Origin: Byssochlamys sp. IMV 00236
Lineage: Eukaryota; Ascomycota; Eurotiomycetes; Eurotiales; Thermoascaceae
NCBI GenBank assembly: GCA_001931875.2
Contig: MSJH02000698.1
Coordinates: 620,001-684,000 of the forward strand
Direction: 5' to 3'
Length of the DNA stretch: 64,000 bases
Shown here piece by piece: positions 1 to 9,639 of the stretch (within the stretch, counting starts at the first letter, position 1; each line of letters opens with the position of its first letter). The translations under genes were made by a program, and so were the position numbers. The notes under the pieces are model-generated. The model searched no databases. It was not told where the DNA came from and was given only the letters and a program-made list of their open reading frames with translations.

Positions 1-26
1 CTGACATCAATGCGCGCGGATTTCAG
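1..26 (+). other. 3' end of an intron of the PAM2/coiled-coil gene
   Basis: The first five bases read CTGAC, a fungal branch-point consensus, and TTTCAG ends at base 26, giving a plausible branch-to-acceptor distance. From base 27 the frame of the downstream gene is open and reads Pro/Ser-rich sequence and then RNIRDEAYLAAPL, so coding sequence starts well before the first possible in-frame start near 107. The stop codon of that frame (bases 2-4) lies inside this intron. The gene therefore begins upstream of the window. Confidence 0.7.
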
Positions 27-3000
27 GTCCAACTCCTTCCGTCTCCGCCATCCCGGCGTCTTCGCCTTCTCGACCTCTAGAGCGTAATATTCGTGACGAA
101 GCATACTTGGCTGCGCCATTGGTGTCGCTCTCACGCGCCACTTCCCCTGCCAACTCGAGCGTCCGGGGTTCCGGTTCGCCTAGTCGTCAGCGTCGACAGC
201 TGAGCTCGACTCCGATTCCCCAGGCGCTTCCGGCGCTGCCCAAGTTTCGAGGTACGGCGTGGGACTCGCTGTCGTCTTCCCCCGAGTATAGACGGGCGGA
301 AAGTAGTACCTACTACACGACTGCGTGGGGATCGCCGTACGCGACCCCCAGTCCGCGCAGACCCTCTTGGACACAGAGTCAAGTTGCCGAACCAGGTCAC
401 CACTCGGGAGACACGTCCCCAGTGTCTACGCGAAGCGGCTTGCACCAGGTATCAAGCGCGGATACTCCGGATTTGAGACACCCGTCGGCCTCGAGCCCCA
501 TCGCCAGGCGAGTGTATCCTTCAGTGGGGCGTGCTACTGCGCGAGATATACCAGGTAGACAAGGAGGGAAATCTATCAGGGATTTTACGGAAGATTGGAT
601 CAATCAGTACCTCTCGGGCCAGCCGAGGACTGAACGGACCAATTGGTTAAGTGACGATTCGGGTAGTGAGACGCCGTCGTTCTTCACTGCACAGAATCAA
701 TTTGTGGACGAAGACGGTTGGCTTGGTCTGGACGACGATTCTCGCGAGGAAGACCCTCTGAAGACGCCCACGGTAGCTGATTACGTTGCTCGTAGAGCGC
801 GGGTTAATAACACAGAAACAGGCCTTCTTCCGCCTAGAGCCAAGCACATCTCTCGCAAGAGCACGGATACGTTGAAGCAAGAGGATTTCTGGGGCTTTGC
901 ATACGACAAGGATCCGGTACCGTCCAAAATGTCTGACCACCAGGACAGACAGCTGTCCGTCGAGGAAAATGCGGCAAAGCCGCTCTCGCCGGTCGAGAAG
1001 CCTCTGCCACCACCGCCTCCAGCGGAGACTCCCCTAGGAGATTCATCAACGCCTAAGATTTCTTCTGGAGACGTCAGTCCGGTCAAGGCGGCCAAAGTCT
1101 CTTCGACGGCGAGACCAAAGAAGCGAGTCGTTTGGCGTGGGAAAGCGTGTATCATTGCGGTTCCGTTGGAGGACAAGAGAGGTTCTGAAGAATCAGGGTA
1201 CCGTCTCCTGACTCGTGCCGATGTCGAGGCACGTCTGAAAAAATTCCAGGATGAAGGGTACGATACACGCGGCTTCAGTATCTGCATGCCGGAAGAATCT
1301 TTTGCGCCATCAGAAGAAGGTGCTCTAAGTCGGCCGCTTCACCCCGATCCCGCTGACATGAAGAAAGAATGGGATGCCCACAACTTCCATGTCAGCTTCC
1401 CGGACCAGTCGGTGTGGGATGAATACGTGAACTTCCTCAAAGAGGGGAAGCTGAGAGCTCTGGGTGTATCACTGGGCGACGACGAGCCGCAGCAGACAAT
1501 CTCTCCAGCCTCGGGCTCCATGAGCCATCTCCCTGGTCAATTACCGGGCCTGATCTCATCTCCACCTGTCCCGACCGGTTCGGCGAACAGCAACCAGTTC
1601 TTTGCTGGTCATCCTTTCTCCCCGCATTTCAATCAATCTGCAAACCTTGGTTCGATCGCCTCTCCAGCATTTTATGGAGGCGACCAGAATCTCCCGTCAG
1701 GCTTCCCGTTCCAATTTACTCCACCAATTCAAGGGACTTTCACACCTCAAAGCTTCTTGAACACACGTCAAACGGGTGTCTCACCGACTGTTCCTAGCAA
1801 CCTGCCAAACTTGAACTCTATCTTATCGCCTGTTTCACCTCTGAACGCGGACGACTCGAATGCATTCCACCCTGGTCTGCATGACATCGTTTCGCCTCAC
1901 AATGAATTCAGACAGGATGGACACGGTGACCTACACAGTCAACCTCCACGACAACTCCAGACGCCTTCAGAGAAGAATGAACCGGAGTCCTTCCAGTCGC
2001 ATGTCGAGATCGCCCATCCCACCCCTCGTGGCCATGGCCACAATGTAAGCGAGACTTTGCAGAAGGGACTAGATCGCTATGCGCAGGCTGATTATCACTT
2101 GGAGGAATCGATCCAGAGACAGTTGGAGGAGGATGACAGGGAGTCTAACCAACAGCACCAGTTCGGCGCAAACGATCTGTTGAACTCTCGATGGGCTTTG
2201 CCGGACAAGATTCCTCAGTCCTCGCAGTTCCCGAGGCAGGGATCGCTTTCTCAGCAACATCATCTCTTTGGCGAACACTACCAGGAAGAAACTGGCCGTG
2301 ACGCCTCGGATATTGACACGAATCCTAGCGTCTCTGGGACACCCCGTATCCAGAGCCACTCCGCAAACCAGCCTTCCTGGCATAAGTCCAGACAGAGCAA
2401 CAGTTCATTTGCTCCCGGTCACAAGCCAAGGACTTCGCTGTCAAATTTCAACGTCGAAGCTAAAGAATTTGATCCCTCGGGTTCGTTCTCGTCTAGCAAC
2501 TTCCAGTTCCAGGGCAACAGCTTCCAGCCTTCAGGATTTGACAGCGCAGGAATCTTCTCTCCAAATTCTATCTTCAAGCCTGCCAGTTCTGCAGGCTCCT
2601 TCAATGTCGAGGCTTCTCCATTCTCACCGTTCACTGGGCAGAACTCCTTCTCTGGACAGAACTCTTTCTCTGGGTTCCAGTTTTCGCCAGCGGCCTTCAA
2701 TGTTGATGCACCTGTTTTCAACCCTGGAAACGCTGTTAACCCCATAGTCCCTAGTTCGGAACCACCAGCAGGCGGCAAGAGCAAGATATTTGGCGACATT
2801 GATTTCACCCAGATTTCGAAGCCTGCCAAGAAATCGAAAGCTATTCCTATTGTGCGTCCAGACGAACACGGAAGTGACACTAAGGAGAACGAGAACGAAA
2901 ATGACAAGGAGAAGGCTCGGGAAGAAACTGGTCGCCAGAAGCGTGCTCGCCGTACCGACGACGACGGTGACAAGGAAGTTGAACTTGCTGCCCCTCTGTC

Positions 3001-6000
3001 AGAAGCTGCCCAAAGACAGTCTCCTCAAGTGCCCAGTACATCGCATGCTCCAGCGGAGGGTAAGGAAAATGCCATTCCTGGTGCAGAGGAAAAAGTCACC
3101 CTTGACACCAAGATCGATATCGTACCGTCTGAGGAGAAGCCTGTGGAATCGAAGGAGACCCCCGTCAGTGAGGCAGAGACCTGGACACCTTTCGAATTCA
3201 AGAATGAAGCCGATGCCGCCGCATTCAATGCTGCTGGACCAGATGCCCCTGGTAAAGTCGGGGTCGAAAAACAGGAGTCCAATGGTGTTGTTGAACGGGA
3301 AGCCAGCCAATTTCCTGCTGCAGAGAATAGCGAGTCTGTTGCTCCAAAGGAAGAAATTCCTCCACCTCGCCAGGAGTCTTCTTACAACAATGCAAAGCGC
3401 CCGTTGAGGTCTAAGCCATTTGAATTCAGACCTTCTATTGCTGAGTTCATACCCTCAAAGTTTGTACTTCCAAAATCCGATGCGGAGCCTGCACCGAAGA
3501 AGGCTGCCGGCCTCATGGCCTCCCGCTATGCCGTGATAAGCCCTCCAGCATCGCCCGAGGTTGGAGCCAAGGAGCCTGAAACTCCCAAACCGACAACGAC
3601 GGTCACGGCTGAGCCAGTGTCCAAGGAATCTCCTAAACCGGCAGACCAGACGGCCGAGCCTGGCGAGGCACATGACTCTCCTGATGAGGAAGAGCTCAAT
3701 GCGGTTATGGAACAACTGAACGGTGATGACTCTGATGTTGGTATCGAGAGACAGATCACCCCTCGTCCCCCGTTGGAGACTATTCCATCTCCTGTGGAGC
3801 CGACGACGGAGCCCTCACTGCCTCCAGTCAACATCATCCGAAGCGAAGCTCCAAGCCCAAGCCCGAAGGCACCTCGGCAGATACGCGACATTCCCAAACG
3901 GGGCTCAGACGTCGGTGTCAAATCGCCCGCCGCTCTCTCTGCCAGCGGTTTCGCATCTCATGCCACTTCTTCAGTCCGCCAAGCGCTCAGTATTAATGAA
4001 GAGCTCAGCGATTGGAATGATGTCCTCTCTTCGGGCGAAGACGAGAAGTTGGCCAACAGGAGCAGGTTCTTCGATTCCCGCGTTGACGATATTGTTGGAA
4101 CCGCTTTGGACGAACGCCTGGGCCCGCTGGAGCAGACATTGAGTGTCATCCAGCAATCGGTGGCGTCGCTTGCTTCTCGATCTGGTAGTAGAAGGCCACT
4201 GCGCAGTACATCTGCCGAGATCGAACACAGTGATGCAGATGATGAGGACGATGAAGAGGCCGAAACGAGATCAAGATCTCCTCTGGATATCAGGGATCGG
4301 AAAATGGAAAAGCTCAAGAACGCCGTTTTGGATGCTCTCGTTGCGCACCAGTCCTCCCGTCCTGAACCCGCAGCTCCTGCTGTGGATTTCTCCTTCCTGC
4401 AGGAGAGCATTGCCGAACTCAAGAGCATTGCGGCTTCAAGACAACCTGCAGCGGAGACCGAAAACCTAAGAGAAACAGTTCAGGCAGTCATTGCGGAGCA
4501 GCTTAGCATCAGAGACGCTCGGAGGTCTGATGCTGATGAGTACGATGCAGAGAGCTTGAAACTTCAAGTTGACGGACTTAAGAGCATGCTCAGAATCGCC
4601 GACGAACGAGCCGATCAACAACACAAGGCCTATAGAGAATCCCAGGACTCTCTCGCAGAGGTCCAAAGGTTGCTCAAGTTCGCGGAAGAAGACGCAGCCC
4701 GTCATCGTGACTCAGCGCTTGCTGCTGAGGAGAGTCTACGTGTGTTCAAGGAAGAGAGGATCCCGCATTTCGAGTGGATCCAGAAGCGGTCCGATGCTCT
4801 GCAAGAGCAGCAGGAATCTCTCCAGCTTACTCTCTCTGAGCTGTCGGCGAAGAATATCGCTCTCGAGGGCACTCTTGATGAGTACAGGCTGTCAAGCGAC
4901 CAGTGGAGACACCAGATCGAAGAAGTCAAGGCAGAGAACAAGGATCTCCGTGCTACTATCAACCATCTGAAGTCTCGCATCGAAGATAGCTTGCGTGCCA
5001 GGCAGAGCCTTCGAACCAAGTTCGACCGTCTACAGGATGATATGACTACTGCAACACGCGACATTGTCCGTGAACAGGCTGCTTGGCGCAAGAGAGAAGA
5101 AGATCACATCGCTAAATACAACGCTCTCCGCGCTTCCTATGACAGAGAAGTCAAGCTCCGGGAGAAGCTAGAGATTGACATCAGCGAGCTGGAACAGCAA
5201 GAGAGGGAAGCTGCGAAGCTGAAATTCATCTTCGCCCAGTCCCAGCATGAGAATGCTAGGTTGGAGGAACTCATTTCCGCTCTGAGACTGGAGAACAATG
5301 AACTCCAAAGCAAAGCCGTGCGCTTCGAGCGGGAATTCAATGAAGCCCGCGAGAGTAGCCGTGCTGAGGTTCAGCGCACCAGGACCTCTATGGAGGCTGA
5401 CATCGAAGCCGCGAACAACCAAGTGAACTATGTGCGCGCAGAACTTGAGGCGCAGATTTCCCGTGTGCAGAATGAGCTGGAGAACGTTAGAATGGACGCC
5501 GACACTACCAAGGAGCGCTATGAGCTGCTGCTGGAAGAAGCGAAAGACGCGAGGGAAGCTGCATTGGCGGCTGCTCTTGAGTCTAAGGAGACTGCTCTCG
5601 AAGAGCAGCGCAAGCTGCATGAACGAGTCCTCAATGATCTCCGAGAACGTCATGCTCGCGCTCTGCACAACGCTTCCGAAGATAAGCAGCGAAATGAGGA
5701 GCACATGTTGGAGAAGCTTTCTCTCTCGGACGAAAAGGTCGAGCATTATAAAGACCGCGTTGCCCATCTTGAGGAGAAGCTGGAGATTGCCAAGTCTGCG
5801 GCCCGCGCAGCAGCCCAAGCAGCTCAGGCCAAGGGAGCTCCGATCAGCTCTCCTCCCCAGCCGACTTCGCCGTCCATGTCTTTCAGACGCGACTCTGTGC
5901 CAGAGAAGATCTCACCACAGGCCCTTCGAGAGTCCATCCTGGTACTCCAGGATCAATTGCAGCAGCGTGAAGGCCGAATCGAAGACCTCGAGCAGGAACT

Positions 6001-6736
6001 GTCGACTGTCGACAAGGAGGCCCCCAACAAGATCAAAGAAAAGGACACCGAGATCAACTGGCTCCGGGAGCTTCTGGGCGTACGTATTGATGATCTGCAA
6101 GATATTATCAACACCCTGTCCCAGCCATCCTTTGATCAGAACGCCGTCCGTGACGCTGCGATCCGTCTGAAGGCCAACCTCCAGATGGAGCAGCAGGAGA
6201 AGGAACGAGCCATGGCTGGCGGTCAGACATTCCCGTCTCTGTCATCCATCTCCAACCTGGCTGCATCCCCTCGTGCCCTTCCCCTTGCCGCTGCCGCGGC
6301 CTGGGGAAGCTGGCGCAAGGCGAGAGATGCCAATTTGTCAGAGCAGACACCTTCGAAATCGAGCACCGCAGGCGGCTTCCTGTCGGGTCTCCTGACTCCA
6401 CCAAGCTCGAACGTGCGACAGTCCCCTATTAACGGAAGCGCTCCGTCGATGATGCAAGGGGCACGACGCTCGTACTCGGAGAGCCGCCCACTGAGGTCTT
6501 ATAATAGCAACAAGACCCTGCGATCTGCTTCGGCCCGTCATAGCGAGAGTCCTTCGCGCTTAGAACCGCCAACCACTCCTCCGCTACTGCGGAGATCAAG
6601 CTATGACCACGACGCGGAGCCGAATAACTACGAAAACGGCACTTTCGGAGATGACCTAGAAAGCACCATGGGCGGTCTGGTATCTCAATCGCCTCGCTCC
6701 GTCGAAGGTCCCTTTGGACCGCAAATTGTTTCATGA
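27..6736 (+). CDS. Large multi-PAM2 coiled-coil protein (Upa2-like candidate), 5' partial
   Basis: An uninterrupted exon of about 2,230 codons ending in TGA; no ATG start is visible, so it is 5' truncated by the window. Numbering from the leucine codon at base 107, the protein has a disordered Ser/Pro-rich start, a compact conserved-looking block (about 340-450, WRGKACIIAVP), and a long Gln/Ser/Pro region containing three PAM2-like motifs: FNVEAKEFDPS (781-791), FNVEASPFSP (832-841) and FNVDAPVFNP (864-873). An acidic/charged stretch follows, then a long coiled coil (about 1450-1960), a second short coil, a WGSW element (2066-2069) and a basic disordered tail. PAM2 motifs bind the MLLE domain of poly(A)-binding protein. 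This architecture resembles Ustilago Upa2, a scaffold of endosomal mRNA transport. Similar fungal proteins are often labelled myosin heavy chain because of the coiled coil, but no motor domain is present. The Upa2 assignment is inference. Confidence 0.72.
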
Positions 6737-8322
6737 GATTGATCAATGCCCATTTCCTTTGTCAACTAAGTTTTTGCTTTATTTTGCATATTTACCCGGA
6801 AGAGAGAGCTCTGGAGGTAGATGTCAGATCAAATTGCCTGATAGTTTTGACTAGTCATCTGTTTATTTCCCCCCAAGCGAGCGAATGATGTGTTTTGACC
6901 CCTTGTTGTTTTCATCCGATTTCTATATCTCTCCCGACTCTTTATTGGTCCTTGTACAATCATCCTAATTTCACGGCGTACCGATCACGATCTTTCTATT
7001 TGATACCGCGTGGGCATCATTTGCTTACATTATACCACTTTGCGTTCTCACGTTGCCCACATACTATTCTTGTCAAATAATTAGGCCGACCTCCTGTCCT
7101 TCTTTTTGATTCTTCATACATACCCGCACGCTTTTCCTTACCCCTTGACGTCTGTACAGTAAGTTTTTCGTACACGAGAGCGGACATTTTAATGTCCAGC
7201 AGAATTTAGACAGATTGCCATAGTGTTGTCTTCAGTGCTTGTTATTGATGTAGTTCTTTCCGGCTCGCGCAGTTTGGGTCAGGCTTTTATATACCGGTCG
7301 GGCTGGAGTATAGCTGTCGAGATTCGCCTCCGCATTCTTTTGCTTTATCAAGCATTATTATCCCTAGAGAAACAGTGCTTCTGAACCAGACCACGTGGGC
7401 CCTTTTCCTCGAACTTATAGTTAGCGTCGGCTATAGTACCGAGCAGAGCTTTGGTGGGACTCATCCACCGTTCGAGTATCCCGTCAAGACCCTGCATGCA
7501 CTATTGACACGCCAGACTGTCCCGAATGTCTCGTTCGATCCAGGAGTTCGTCGATGAAGAAGAGTGATGCGACATAGCGAGAAGTAGATCTCCTGAAGCT
7601 GAAAAGACTAGTAATGACTCTAGAATCTCAGGAGACGGATCTCCTTCATGGAAGCTCTGTTTTCCTATTGTTCTTTTTCCTTCGTATCTGATCCTTTCTG
7701 CATCTCGACAACATGCAGATCCCAGCTACTATATGCAATGCCACGACCAGCGGATGTTCCGGGAGGAATTGACAGCACTGCAACTCCTGTAACTATAACG
7801 TAATAGATTGGACAAGGAAGTCTGGGCCTTTGTCGTTCTTGATATGCTATACTGCTATACTTCTAGCTTATACTGATTTTTCTGGGCAAGTTAGCACAGT
7901 CGCGTCAGTACTTATCTCGTTCCGCTGCGGAGGAGTCGACAGCACGCCACAAACAGTTCGAGTCTCGACACAGAGGTCATGGGATGAAGTGGAAAGAAGT
8001 GGACGAAGTGGATCAAATAGTCTATGAATATCACACTTTGGTCCTACACAAGGCTGAGCGGTCAAGCCAGGAGCTGGCGGTGGCCTGAGTACCTCCAGGC
8101 CAGACCTCGACAGGCTGCATAAGCGTTGGAGTTGGTCGGCCGCACCATTAACAAGTCAATAATACGTAACCCACGAACCAACTCCCTTCCTCCGCTTTGC
8201 AAAAAGAATAAAGGAAACTGGTATTTATTGCTCCATCCCGTGTCTCCGGTCATGAAGATCTTTTGTCTCTTATCGATTCTAACTTCTTCTTTGCAGATAG
8301 CCAAACCTACTATCGTTTCGCG
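6737..8322. other. Intergenic region between the PAM2 protein and the MFS gene
   Basis: Contains the 3' UTR of the large coiled-coil gene and the promoter of the transporter. It is T-rich after 6760. Short open frames, such as those at 6895-7080 and 7375-7557, have no recognisable domain and no consistent intron structure. No RNA gene or mobile element was recognised. Confidence 0.6.
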
Positions 8323-9639
8323 ATGATTGAGGACACTGAGAGCAACGAGCTGTCCGAGCAAGGTATCAACGACAGTCTTCCAGAATCAGAAGATCTCGTC
8401 GGTCAGTCTCTTCCGCCCGTAGACCGTGGAAAGGATGCTTGGCTCGTCCTAGTGGGAACTTTCGTCATTGAGGGACTCGTCTGGGGATTCCCTTTCACTT
8501 CTGGGGTTTTCCAGGAGTACTACTCCAACAATGGGCAGTTTGATGATAACCCCGCTGGGGTAACGATGATTGGAACCGTGACCCTTGGGGTCCTCTATCT
8601 CAGTTCACCACTGTGTCTGTTTGCGCTCCGACAGTGGCCACGATACCGTCGCAGATCCATCATCTTGGGTTGCTTGATATCTTCTCTGGCTTTGGTGGCA
8701 GCTTCATTTGCTACGCGCGTCTGGCAACTGGTCTTGACACAGGGCTTTCTCTACGCCATTGGCGCGTGTATGATGTCTTACCCGACAATGCTGTTCGTCA
8801 ACGAGTGGTTCGTCCACCGCAAGGGCCTGGCTTTTGGCATTGCGTGGGCCAGTACGGGATGTTCTGGGGTCACGGCTCCTCTATTCATCTCCTGGTCACT
8901 GTCACATTTCTCTTTCCGCACCACTCTCCGCATATGGGCAGTCGCTAGTACCATTCTTCTATGCCCCGTGCTGCCTTTCATGAAGCCTCGCGTGCCACCT
9001 TCGACCGTCTCTGCTTCGAAGATCCCTAATATGAAATTCGTCATCTGTCGACCATTCTTGCCACTGCAACTGTGCAGTATCATGGAGAGCCTGGGCTATT
9101 TCCTCCCCAGTTTATACCTTCCTCTATATGCGCGCTCGCTGGGATTCAGCAACGAAATCGCCACTGCGAGCGTGGTACTTCTGAACGGCGGTGCATTTTT
9201 CGGCTCAGTTGTCATCGGGTTCTTAGTCGATCAATGGGACGTAACGACCGTCATGTTATTCTCCACCGTCGGCGCAACTGCATCTGTCGTTTTCCTCTGG
9301 GGCTTTTCAGGCCTAGCTGCCATCCTATGCACTTTCTCCTGTCTGTACGGCTTCTTCGCAGGGAGCTTCAGCTCCATCTGGCCGGGAATCATGCGCGAGA
9401 CGACAGCAAAGCATTACTCCGCGGAGCCTGGGCTGGTTTATGCTCTGCTAGTGGCAGGTCGCGGAGTAGGGGGCGTGCTCTCCGGACCCTTAAGCGAGGC
9501 CTTGCTGACTGCACCGCCTTTAACTAATGTGATTTCCTATGGCTATGGCAGCAAATATGGTATATTGATTGTTTTCACCGGCGTTACGACTATGTTAGGT
9601 GGAATCGGATTTTTCGGAAGACGCCTTGGTTGGGTGTGA
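8323..9639 (+). CDS. MFS transporter, monocarboxylate-permease-like
   Basis: Single exon of 438 residues. The frame is open from 8263, but the first ATG is at 8323 and gives a usual acidic cytosolic N-terminus (MIEDTESNEL). About twelve hydrophobic segments follow in two blocks of six, separated by a Pro/Ser/Lys-containing loop near residue 225. The first segment follows a DRGKDAWLVL-type entry, and an NEWFVHRKGLAFG loop lies between segments 4 and 5. Both are characteristic of the fungal monocarboxylate transporter-like branch of the major facilitator superfamily (the MCH/riboflavin-permease relatives). The substrate cannot be told from sequence: short carboxylates, riboflavin or a secondary metabolite are all possible. 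It probably resides in the plasma membrane. The length is slightly short for the family but all segments appear present. Confidence 0.85.
   Translation: MIEDTESNELSEQGINDSLPESEDLVGQSLPPVDRGKDAWLVLVGTFVIEGLVWGFPFTSGVFQEYYSNNGQFDDNPAGVTMIGTVTLGVLYLSSPLCLFALRQWPRYRRRSIILGCLISSLALVAASFATRVWQLVLTQGFLYAIGACMMSYPTMLFVNEWFVHRKGLAFGIAWASTGCSGVTAPLFISWSLSHFSFRTTLRIWAVASTILLCPVLPFMKPRVPPSTVSASKIPNMKFVICRPFLPLQLCSIMESLGYFLPSLYLPLYARSLGFSNEIATASVVLLNGGAFFGSVVIGFLVDQWDVTTVMLFSTVGATASVVFLWGFSGLAAILCTFSCLYGFFAGSFSSIWPGIMRETTAKHYSAEPGLVYALLVAGRGVGGVLSGPLSEALLTAPPLTNVISYGYGSKYGILIVFTGVTTMLGGIGFFGRRLGWV

Follow-up and report, generated by a model that had tools for sequence, protein, structure and literature searches.

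Endosomal mRNA transport has been worked out in Ustilago maydis, where two proteins combine attachment to endosomes with PAM2 motifs directed at the poly(A)-binding protein Pab1. Upa2 is described as an endosome-bound scaffold (PMC4466420/PMC9249222, PMC12852828) and carries four such PAM2 motifs (PMC12852828) along with a C-terminal GWW. Upa1 is an endosome adaptor that combines a PAM2 motif for Pab1, which binds at 14.6 µM, with two PAM2L motifs for Rrm4 and with FYVE, RING and ankyrin parts, and its PAM2 is dispensable for its function (PMC4466420/PMC9249222). The PAM2L motif is distinguished by F-x-x-P, a run of acidic residues and a tyrosine that is critical; its partner is MLLE3 of Rrm4, and the MLLE domain of Pab1 does not bind it (PMC4466420, PMC9249222, PMC12852828). 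Ascomycetes are reported to lack both Rrm4 and Upa2, yet in Sordaria the proteins GUL1 and Pab1 move together (approximately 91%), most likely on Rab5 endosomes (PMC7550108).

A protein already placed on ascomycete endosomes is PxdA of Aspergillus nidulans, which is found on early endosomes and is required for peroxisome hitchhiking (PMC9882315, PMC12991151). Its coiled-coil region CC1-3 (amino acids 1466-2115) is both necessary and sufficient for hitchhiking, whereas its N-terminal extension is described as having no discernible conserved domain (PMC9882315). The protein is reported from Pezizomycotina only; others found no homologue in U. maydis, where a divergent one could exist (PMC9882315). 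In light-sensing A. nidulans, growth and light-responsive development suffer on deletion of pxdA or hookA but not on deletion of acbdA, a gene whose loss likewise halts peroxisomes; the authors of that study regard the defect as one that does not depend on peroxisome hitchhiking, with a protein or an mRNA suggested as the cargo (PMC12991151). As the pxdA-deletion defects have no acbdA equivalent, PxdA has a role beyond peroxisome transport. Deletion of hookA stops endosome motility and gives the same defects as deletion of pxdA (PMC12991151), so that a signalling cargo other than mRNA would fit equally. A single Discussion sentence of the same work, a preprint of March 2026, labels motifs of PxdA as PAM2L (PMC12991151). 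Among the papers listed, this label was the only literature found to connect PxdA with PAM2, another paper containing both words just in its references, and PxdA does not occur in the main text of a field review of December 2025 (PMC12852828).

The DNA analysed here, referred to as the window, is a 64,000-nucleotide stretch of Byssochlamys sp. IMV 00236 (C695:620001-684000 of a 47.4-Mb, 840-contig assembly). It begins within a large gene on the + strand, where an open frame of 2,243 codons occupies 5..6736. The main exon is placed at 27..6736 by the open frame, by an acceptor AG at window 25-26 that follows a branch-point-like CTGAC (by eye), and by a Paecilomyces variotii protein (P0002) that joins at the exon start, at about 27, and runs on upstream; the 5' end of the gene, with its first exon or exons, lies upstream of the window. 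P0002, a hypothetical protein, is the best database match (99% identity over the whole query), and AN1156 of A. nidulans (P0102) aligns at 49% identity with 99% query coverage. AN1156 is PxdA (PMC9882315, PMC12991151), and the window protein is, by sequence, its orthologue; the CC3 stretch (A. nidulans amino acids 2033-2058) is conserved, reading SFNKDSVRDAAIRLKANLQMQQQEKE in AN1156 and SFDQNAVRDAAIRLKANLQMEQQEKE in the window protein. The sequence-only reading of this DNA had remarked that such proteins of Eurotiales tend to be called myosin heavy chains, and many of the listed orthologues do bear the name "myosin class II heavy chain". The protein is PxdA, and its treatment as an unidentified myosin was rejected; nor is the idea of an undescribed scaffold supported. 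At E values up to 1, Pfam listed no family for the window protein, FYVE, RING and ankyrin included, in which it differs from Upa1; the NCBIfam scan gave no match and no relatives were found in the PDB. In the annotations, a PF00332 glucanase is fused to 8 of 120 homologues (best 120 of 1,088) and a PF07690 MFS transporter to five homologues of the third list described below (among the matches listed). By reading, the neighbours of the gene are glucanase-like upstream (L003 4979-5446) and MFS-like downstream (window 8212-9639), and the annotated fusions thus look like run-together gene models that hint at a conserved gene order.

Within the low-complexity N-terminal half of the protein lie three matches to the strict PAM2 pattern, [hydrophobic]NxxAxx[aromatic]xP, all on the + strand: FNVEAKEFDP (residues 815-824; window 2447..2476), FNVEASPFSP (residues 866-875; window 2600..2629) and FNVDAPVFNP (residues 898-907; window 2696..2725). 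These are the three motifs singled out by the sequence-only reading, whose spacings of 51 and 32 residues hold start to start; its span of 2447..2740 starts correctly and overshoots the third motif, which ends at 2725. Its placement of the motifs in a disordered region before a long coiled coil also agrees with what is seen, the low-complexity half being followed by a long helical, presumed coiled-coil half. PxdA of A. nidulans, described for peroxisome hitchhiking, likewise carries three strict matches (at 831, 878 and 915). Among 20,000 shuffles of the whole protein, 161 held one strict match, 1 held two and none held three, and when residues 781-960 were shuffled 20,000 times, a single match arose in 68 cases and never more than one; shuffles of the first 121 listed proteins set the chance level at approximately 0.008 strict matches per protein.

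The motifs also stand out across the assembly. The DNA pattern for [FL]NVxAxxFxP is met at 9 places in the 47.4 Mb, 3 of which are those described here, and the reversed control is met at 2. The other 6 places comprise five in frames of at most 68 amino acids and one in an 825-residue frame (L012) with an LsmAD domain (94.6 bits) and the motif FNVRAMEFKP. We take this frame to be ataxin-2/Pbp1, of a family known for PAM2; it shares the F-first variant of the motif with the window protein but has one such motif and the LsmAD domain, and we know of no link between ataxin-2/Pbp1 and endosomes. Relaxing the pattern to [FL]NxxAxxFxP costs much of this specificity (52 places vs 22 for the reversed control), and among the 38 of its 52 places that were read in frame, the frames L029, L034, L040, L042 and L045, each longer than 250 amino acids, match besides PxdA and ataxin-2. 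L034 (1-1632, on C478) is a 544-residue frame with heptad-like and Gln-rich stretches; at its end stands GALNAQARQFIPQGNKRARED, where a loose PAM2-like match adjoins a basic tail, and no Pfam family exceeds its cut-off in this frame. Under the Pfam PAM2 profile (PF07145) the window copy scores 16.3 bits, short of the cut-off of 20, and this is still the top place in the assembly. AN1156 scores 19.9 bits, just under the cut-off, and the homologues P0097 and P0137 score 27.3 and 24.7 bits. PF07145 is precomputed on 20 of the 351 homologues listed (1, 19 and 0 in the three lists). The first motif position is F in the window copies, and L in motif 1 of 98 of the first 121 listed proteins.

The 351 homologues were drawn from three protein lists (120, 120 and 111 new), each the best 120 of those passing cut-offs (1,088, 296 and 408, respectively). 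Named members belong to Eurotiomycetes, Lecanoromycetes, Dothideomycetes and Sarea-, Geoglossum- and Thelocarpon-type lineages, alongside many metagenome records; no member of Sordariomycetes or Leotiomycetes appears by name among the matches listed (best 120 per list). Class names, here and below, are those to which we presume the listed organisms to belong. Strict PAM2 matches occur in 120/120, 94/120 and 88/111 proteins of the three lists and, when a core of [LF]N[VAI]xAxEF is also accepted, in 120/120, 95/120 and 111/111 (all among the matches listed), such that 326 of the 351 listed homologues hold one or the other. All 326 listed homologues of at least 1,400 amino acids are positive, and the 25 negatives are all C-terminal pieces of at most 1,301 amino acids, while 11 of 1,800 shuffled proteins were positive by the same combined test. 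Proteins with the N-terminal signature have a strict match in 161 of 173 listed cases and are positive by the core only in the other 12. Conservation among orthologues, offered as a check on the sequence-only reading, is seen in every listed homologue long enough, across the classes sampled. The first 121 listed proteins mostly hold two (62) or three (57) strict matches, with one in 1 protein and four in 1. Motif 1 in this set retains L in 98, N in 120, A in 121, E in 110, F in 121 and P in 121, and motif 3 retains N in 121, A in 121, F in 120 and P in 121; motif 2 is more variable and gapped.

A cross-class alignment of 39 hand-chosen rows from across the listed groups extends this view. In motif 1, N and A are present in all 39 rows and V in 38, and motif 2 retains P in 38 rows, F in 36, A in 34 and N in 32; the first F of motif 3 is found in 35, A in 34, the second F in 34 and P in 35, and N in just 16. 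The commonest residue of the median column of residues 501-1000 occurs in 38% of the rows. Most aligned rows from outside the Eurotiomycetes have a motif 1 like LNVEAKEFKFNP, with the Pro displaced (EFKFNP), and a motif 3 like FKPDAPVFNP, without the Asn. On this pattern, an ancestral state seems likely for motifs 1 and 2 in the classes sampled, and a third motif of canonical form would be chiefly a trait of Eurotiomycetes. When the residues of the pattern were permuted in all 120 orders, the PAM2 order had the most matches (545). Next came FNAhP (304 matches), which can match PAM2 sites because F fits both slots, and the third, PhAFN, was matched at one site in 226 proteins; having a different residue order, this must be another site, retained by descent. 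Since relatives share ancestry, conservation of any single site is weak evidence, and the presence of several sites per protein makes the stronger case.

Other parts of the protein are conserved as well. An N-terminal block, TEDWINQYLSGQPRTERTNWLSDDSG (residues 195-250; window 587-754), is strongly conserved among the first 121 listed proteins and can be recognised in several further lineages, and no known domain was found in it. A second region, residues 368-492 (window 1106..1480, + strand), has 9 invariant columns in a 26-row alignment, and its structure model is poor (mean pLDDT 69.5, pTM 0.28). Directly after motif 3 comes the block KIFGDIDF...SKAIPIVRP (residues 928-950; window 2786-2854), which together with the basic run RQKRARR (residues 977-983) is among the best-conserved short runs of residues 501-1000 in the 39 rows. 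The long helical half (residues approximately 1501-2070; window 4505..6214, + strand) is presumed to be a coiled coil from its composition, the model helices and the published orthologue. In a single-chain model of residues 1962-2112, helices at 1971-2038 and 2045-2070 are well predicted, and PxdA would self-associate. The element AAAAAWGSWRK (window 6287..6319, + strand) follows two helices, in a stretch where the helix prediction has a pLDDT below 50. Its family form is AAA[WFI]G[NS]W[RK] in the aligned rows, with exceptions such as AALGNWR, and the aligned Dothideomycetes have F or I in place of its first W. The WGSW itself, which the sequence-only reading had set near the C-terminus at residues 2066-2069, is present but occupies residues 2100-2103 (window 6302-6313), about 140 residues before the end. 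AN1156 has WGSW as well, at 2090; as this lies within the hitchhiking-sufficient region, the element may help to bind the endosome or the peroxisome.

The nature of the three motifs bears directly on the partner that they would recruit. The preprint label of PAM2L (PMC12991151) would direct them to an Rrm4-type MLLE domain, although its authors may use the term loosely for PAM2-like. The window motifs have the F-x-P spacing and lack the acidic run, the F-x-x-P and the tyrosine of PAM2L, and a scan of 241 proteins, those preceding the 111 new ones of the third list, gave 1 PAM2L-like match. Motif 1 instead fits the consensus xxLNxxAxEFxP (PMC4466420/PMC9249222). A six-frame search of the assembly for MLLE domains at E up to 10 returned two places, both in Pab1-like frames: one on C807, Aspergillus-like by reading, whose MLLE is complete when the following exon is added, and one on the small contig C394 that looks like a contaminant. 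No Rrm4-type MLLE was found at this threshold, in a search of a kind that may miss divergent or intron-split domains. With Pab1-type MLLE domains alone found and Rrm4 reported missing from ascomycetes, the likely partner is Pab1. The evidence says that the motifs are canonical PAM2 rather than PAM2L; the PAM2L label was rejected, and its being correct seems exceedingly improbable. Diverged second copies of Pab1 (L001, C394), of an ataxin-2-like frame (L029, C403) and of a DUF2433 frame (C661) sit on small contigs and, by reading, resemble contamination by another fungus, perhaps a mucoromycete. The motifs might alternatively be conserved for another partner, with no MLLE binding, as Phe and Pro abound throughout this part of the protein and the nearby KIFGDIDF and SKAIPIVRPD are likewise conserved. 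This is improbable in view of the full LNxxAxEFxP fit seen among the first listed proteins (L in 98/121 and E in 110/121 for motif 1), the scores of P0097 and P0137 above the Pfam PAM2 cut-off, and the two or three copies of the motif found in 119 of these 121 proteins. Binding of Pab1 by the PxdA motifs is considered very probable.

How such binding would relate to Upa2, and what purpose it would serve, are separate matters. The sequence-only reading had likened the protein to Upa2 in its logic, and the comparison stands insofar as several PAM2 motifs, three here and four in Upa2, precede a long helical half in a protein of endosomes, a location published for the A. nidulans orthologue. It fails at the tryptophan motif, for the window protein has no C-terminal GWW and instead its family shows GNW or GSW approximately 140 residues before the end; membership of Upa2 was rejected on this ground, and PxdA additionally carries peroxisomes. 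The same order of parts, from PAM2 motifs through a presumed coiled coil to a tryptophan element towards the C-terminus, would be expected if PxdA were a diverged Upa2 from a common ancestor. Such descent is not supported and is most unlikely, given that Upa2 is reported missing from ascomycetes, that no U. maydis homologue of PxdA was detected by others, and that the first W of the element is lost in the sampled Dothideomycetes. The likeness rests on the described parts of Upa2, its sequence aside, and as an analogy of function it appears good. Upa1 offers a further parallel, as an endosome adaptor with a PAM2 motif for Pab1. It also enters the argument for a different use of the motifs, under which PAM2 would bind Pab1 not for mRNA movement but, for instance, for the local retention or control of mRNAs under translation, for co-translational loading of PxdA or for bringing PxdA into mRNP granules: many PAM2 proteins (eRF3, GW182, LARP4) act in translation or decay, and the PAM2 motif of Upa1 is dispensable for transport in Ustilago (PMC4466420/PMC9249222). 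The endosomal location of PxdA and the movement of Pab1 with GUL1 in Sordaria fit recruitment to endosomes instead, and a role of PAM2 apart from mRNA movement is regarded as rather unlikely, if less remote than the readings above.

The reading preferred here is that of PxdA as a two-cargo adaptor, carrying mRNPs through PAM2 and peroxisomes through its coiled coil. Its N-terminal half would dock Pab1 on poly(A) tails via several weak PAM2 motifs, and the poly(A) mRNPs so held would ride on the moving endosomes bound by its C-terminal half, such that PxdA would perform in these ascomycetes part of the role that Upa2 has in Ustilago. Given the PAM2 array, the endosomal location and the movement of Pab1 in Sordaria, the simplest model is one in which the N-terminal half carries mRNPs, bearing in mind that the Pfam score of the window copy is below the cut-off and that the Sordaria observation comes from a class outside the sample. 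The adaptor reading is judged the best explanation with moderate confidence, and recruitment of mRNPs by PxdA in vivo is, to a similar degree, probable; we infer from these that mRNA would be transported and that this would be linked to the pxdA phenotypes. As for other components of hitchhiking, the assembly has a DUF2433 (DipA-type) frame of 674 amino acids (C812), and an ACBP search for AcbdA gave one match, on the small contig C7, with AcbdA itself not identified.

PxdA was known before, as were PAM2-type motifs in one preprint sentence; to these are added the assignment of the motifs as canonical PAM2, their conservation and the inventory of MLLE domains. The motifs, their conservation, the MLLE inventory and the orthology are established here. 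The canonical assignment corrects a label implying a partner of which no copy was detected in the assembly, and the presence of PAM2 across the sampled classes, in a protein already located on ascomycete endosomes, amounts to a specific prediction. PxdA is a strong candidate for the missing link by which mRNAs would ride endosomes in these fungi. More tentatively, and with the balance tipped slightly against it, PxdA may serve the motile early endosomes of Pezizomycotina as a general hub for cargo, a convergent multi-PAM2 scaffold standing in for the missing Rrm4-Upa2 machinery, in which case the peroxisome-independent growth and light defects of pxdA mutants would at least in part be defects of mRNA transport.
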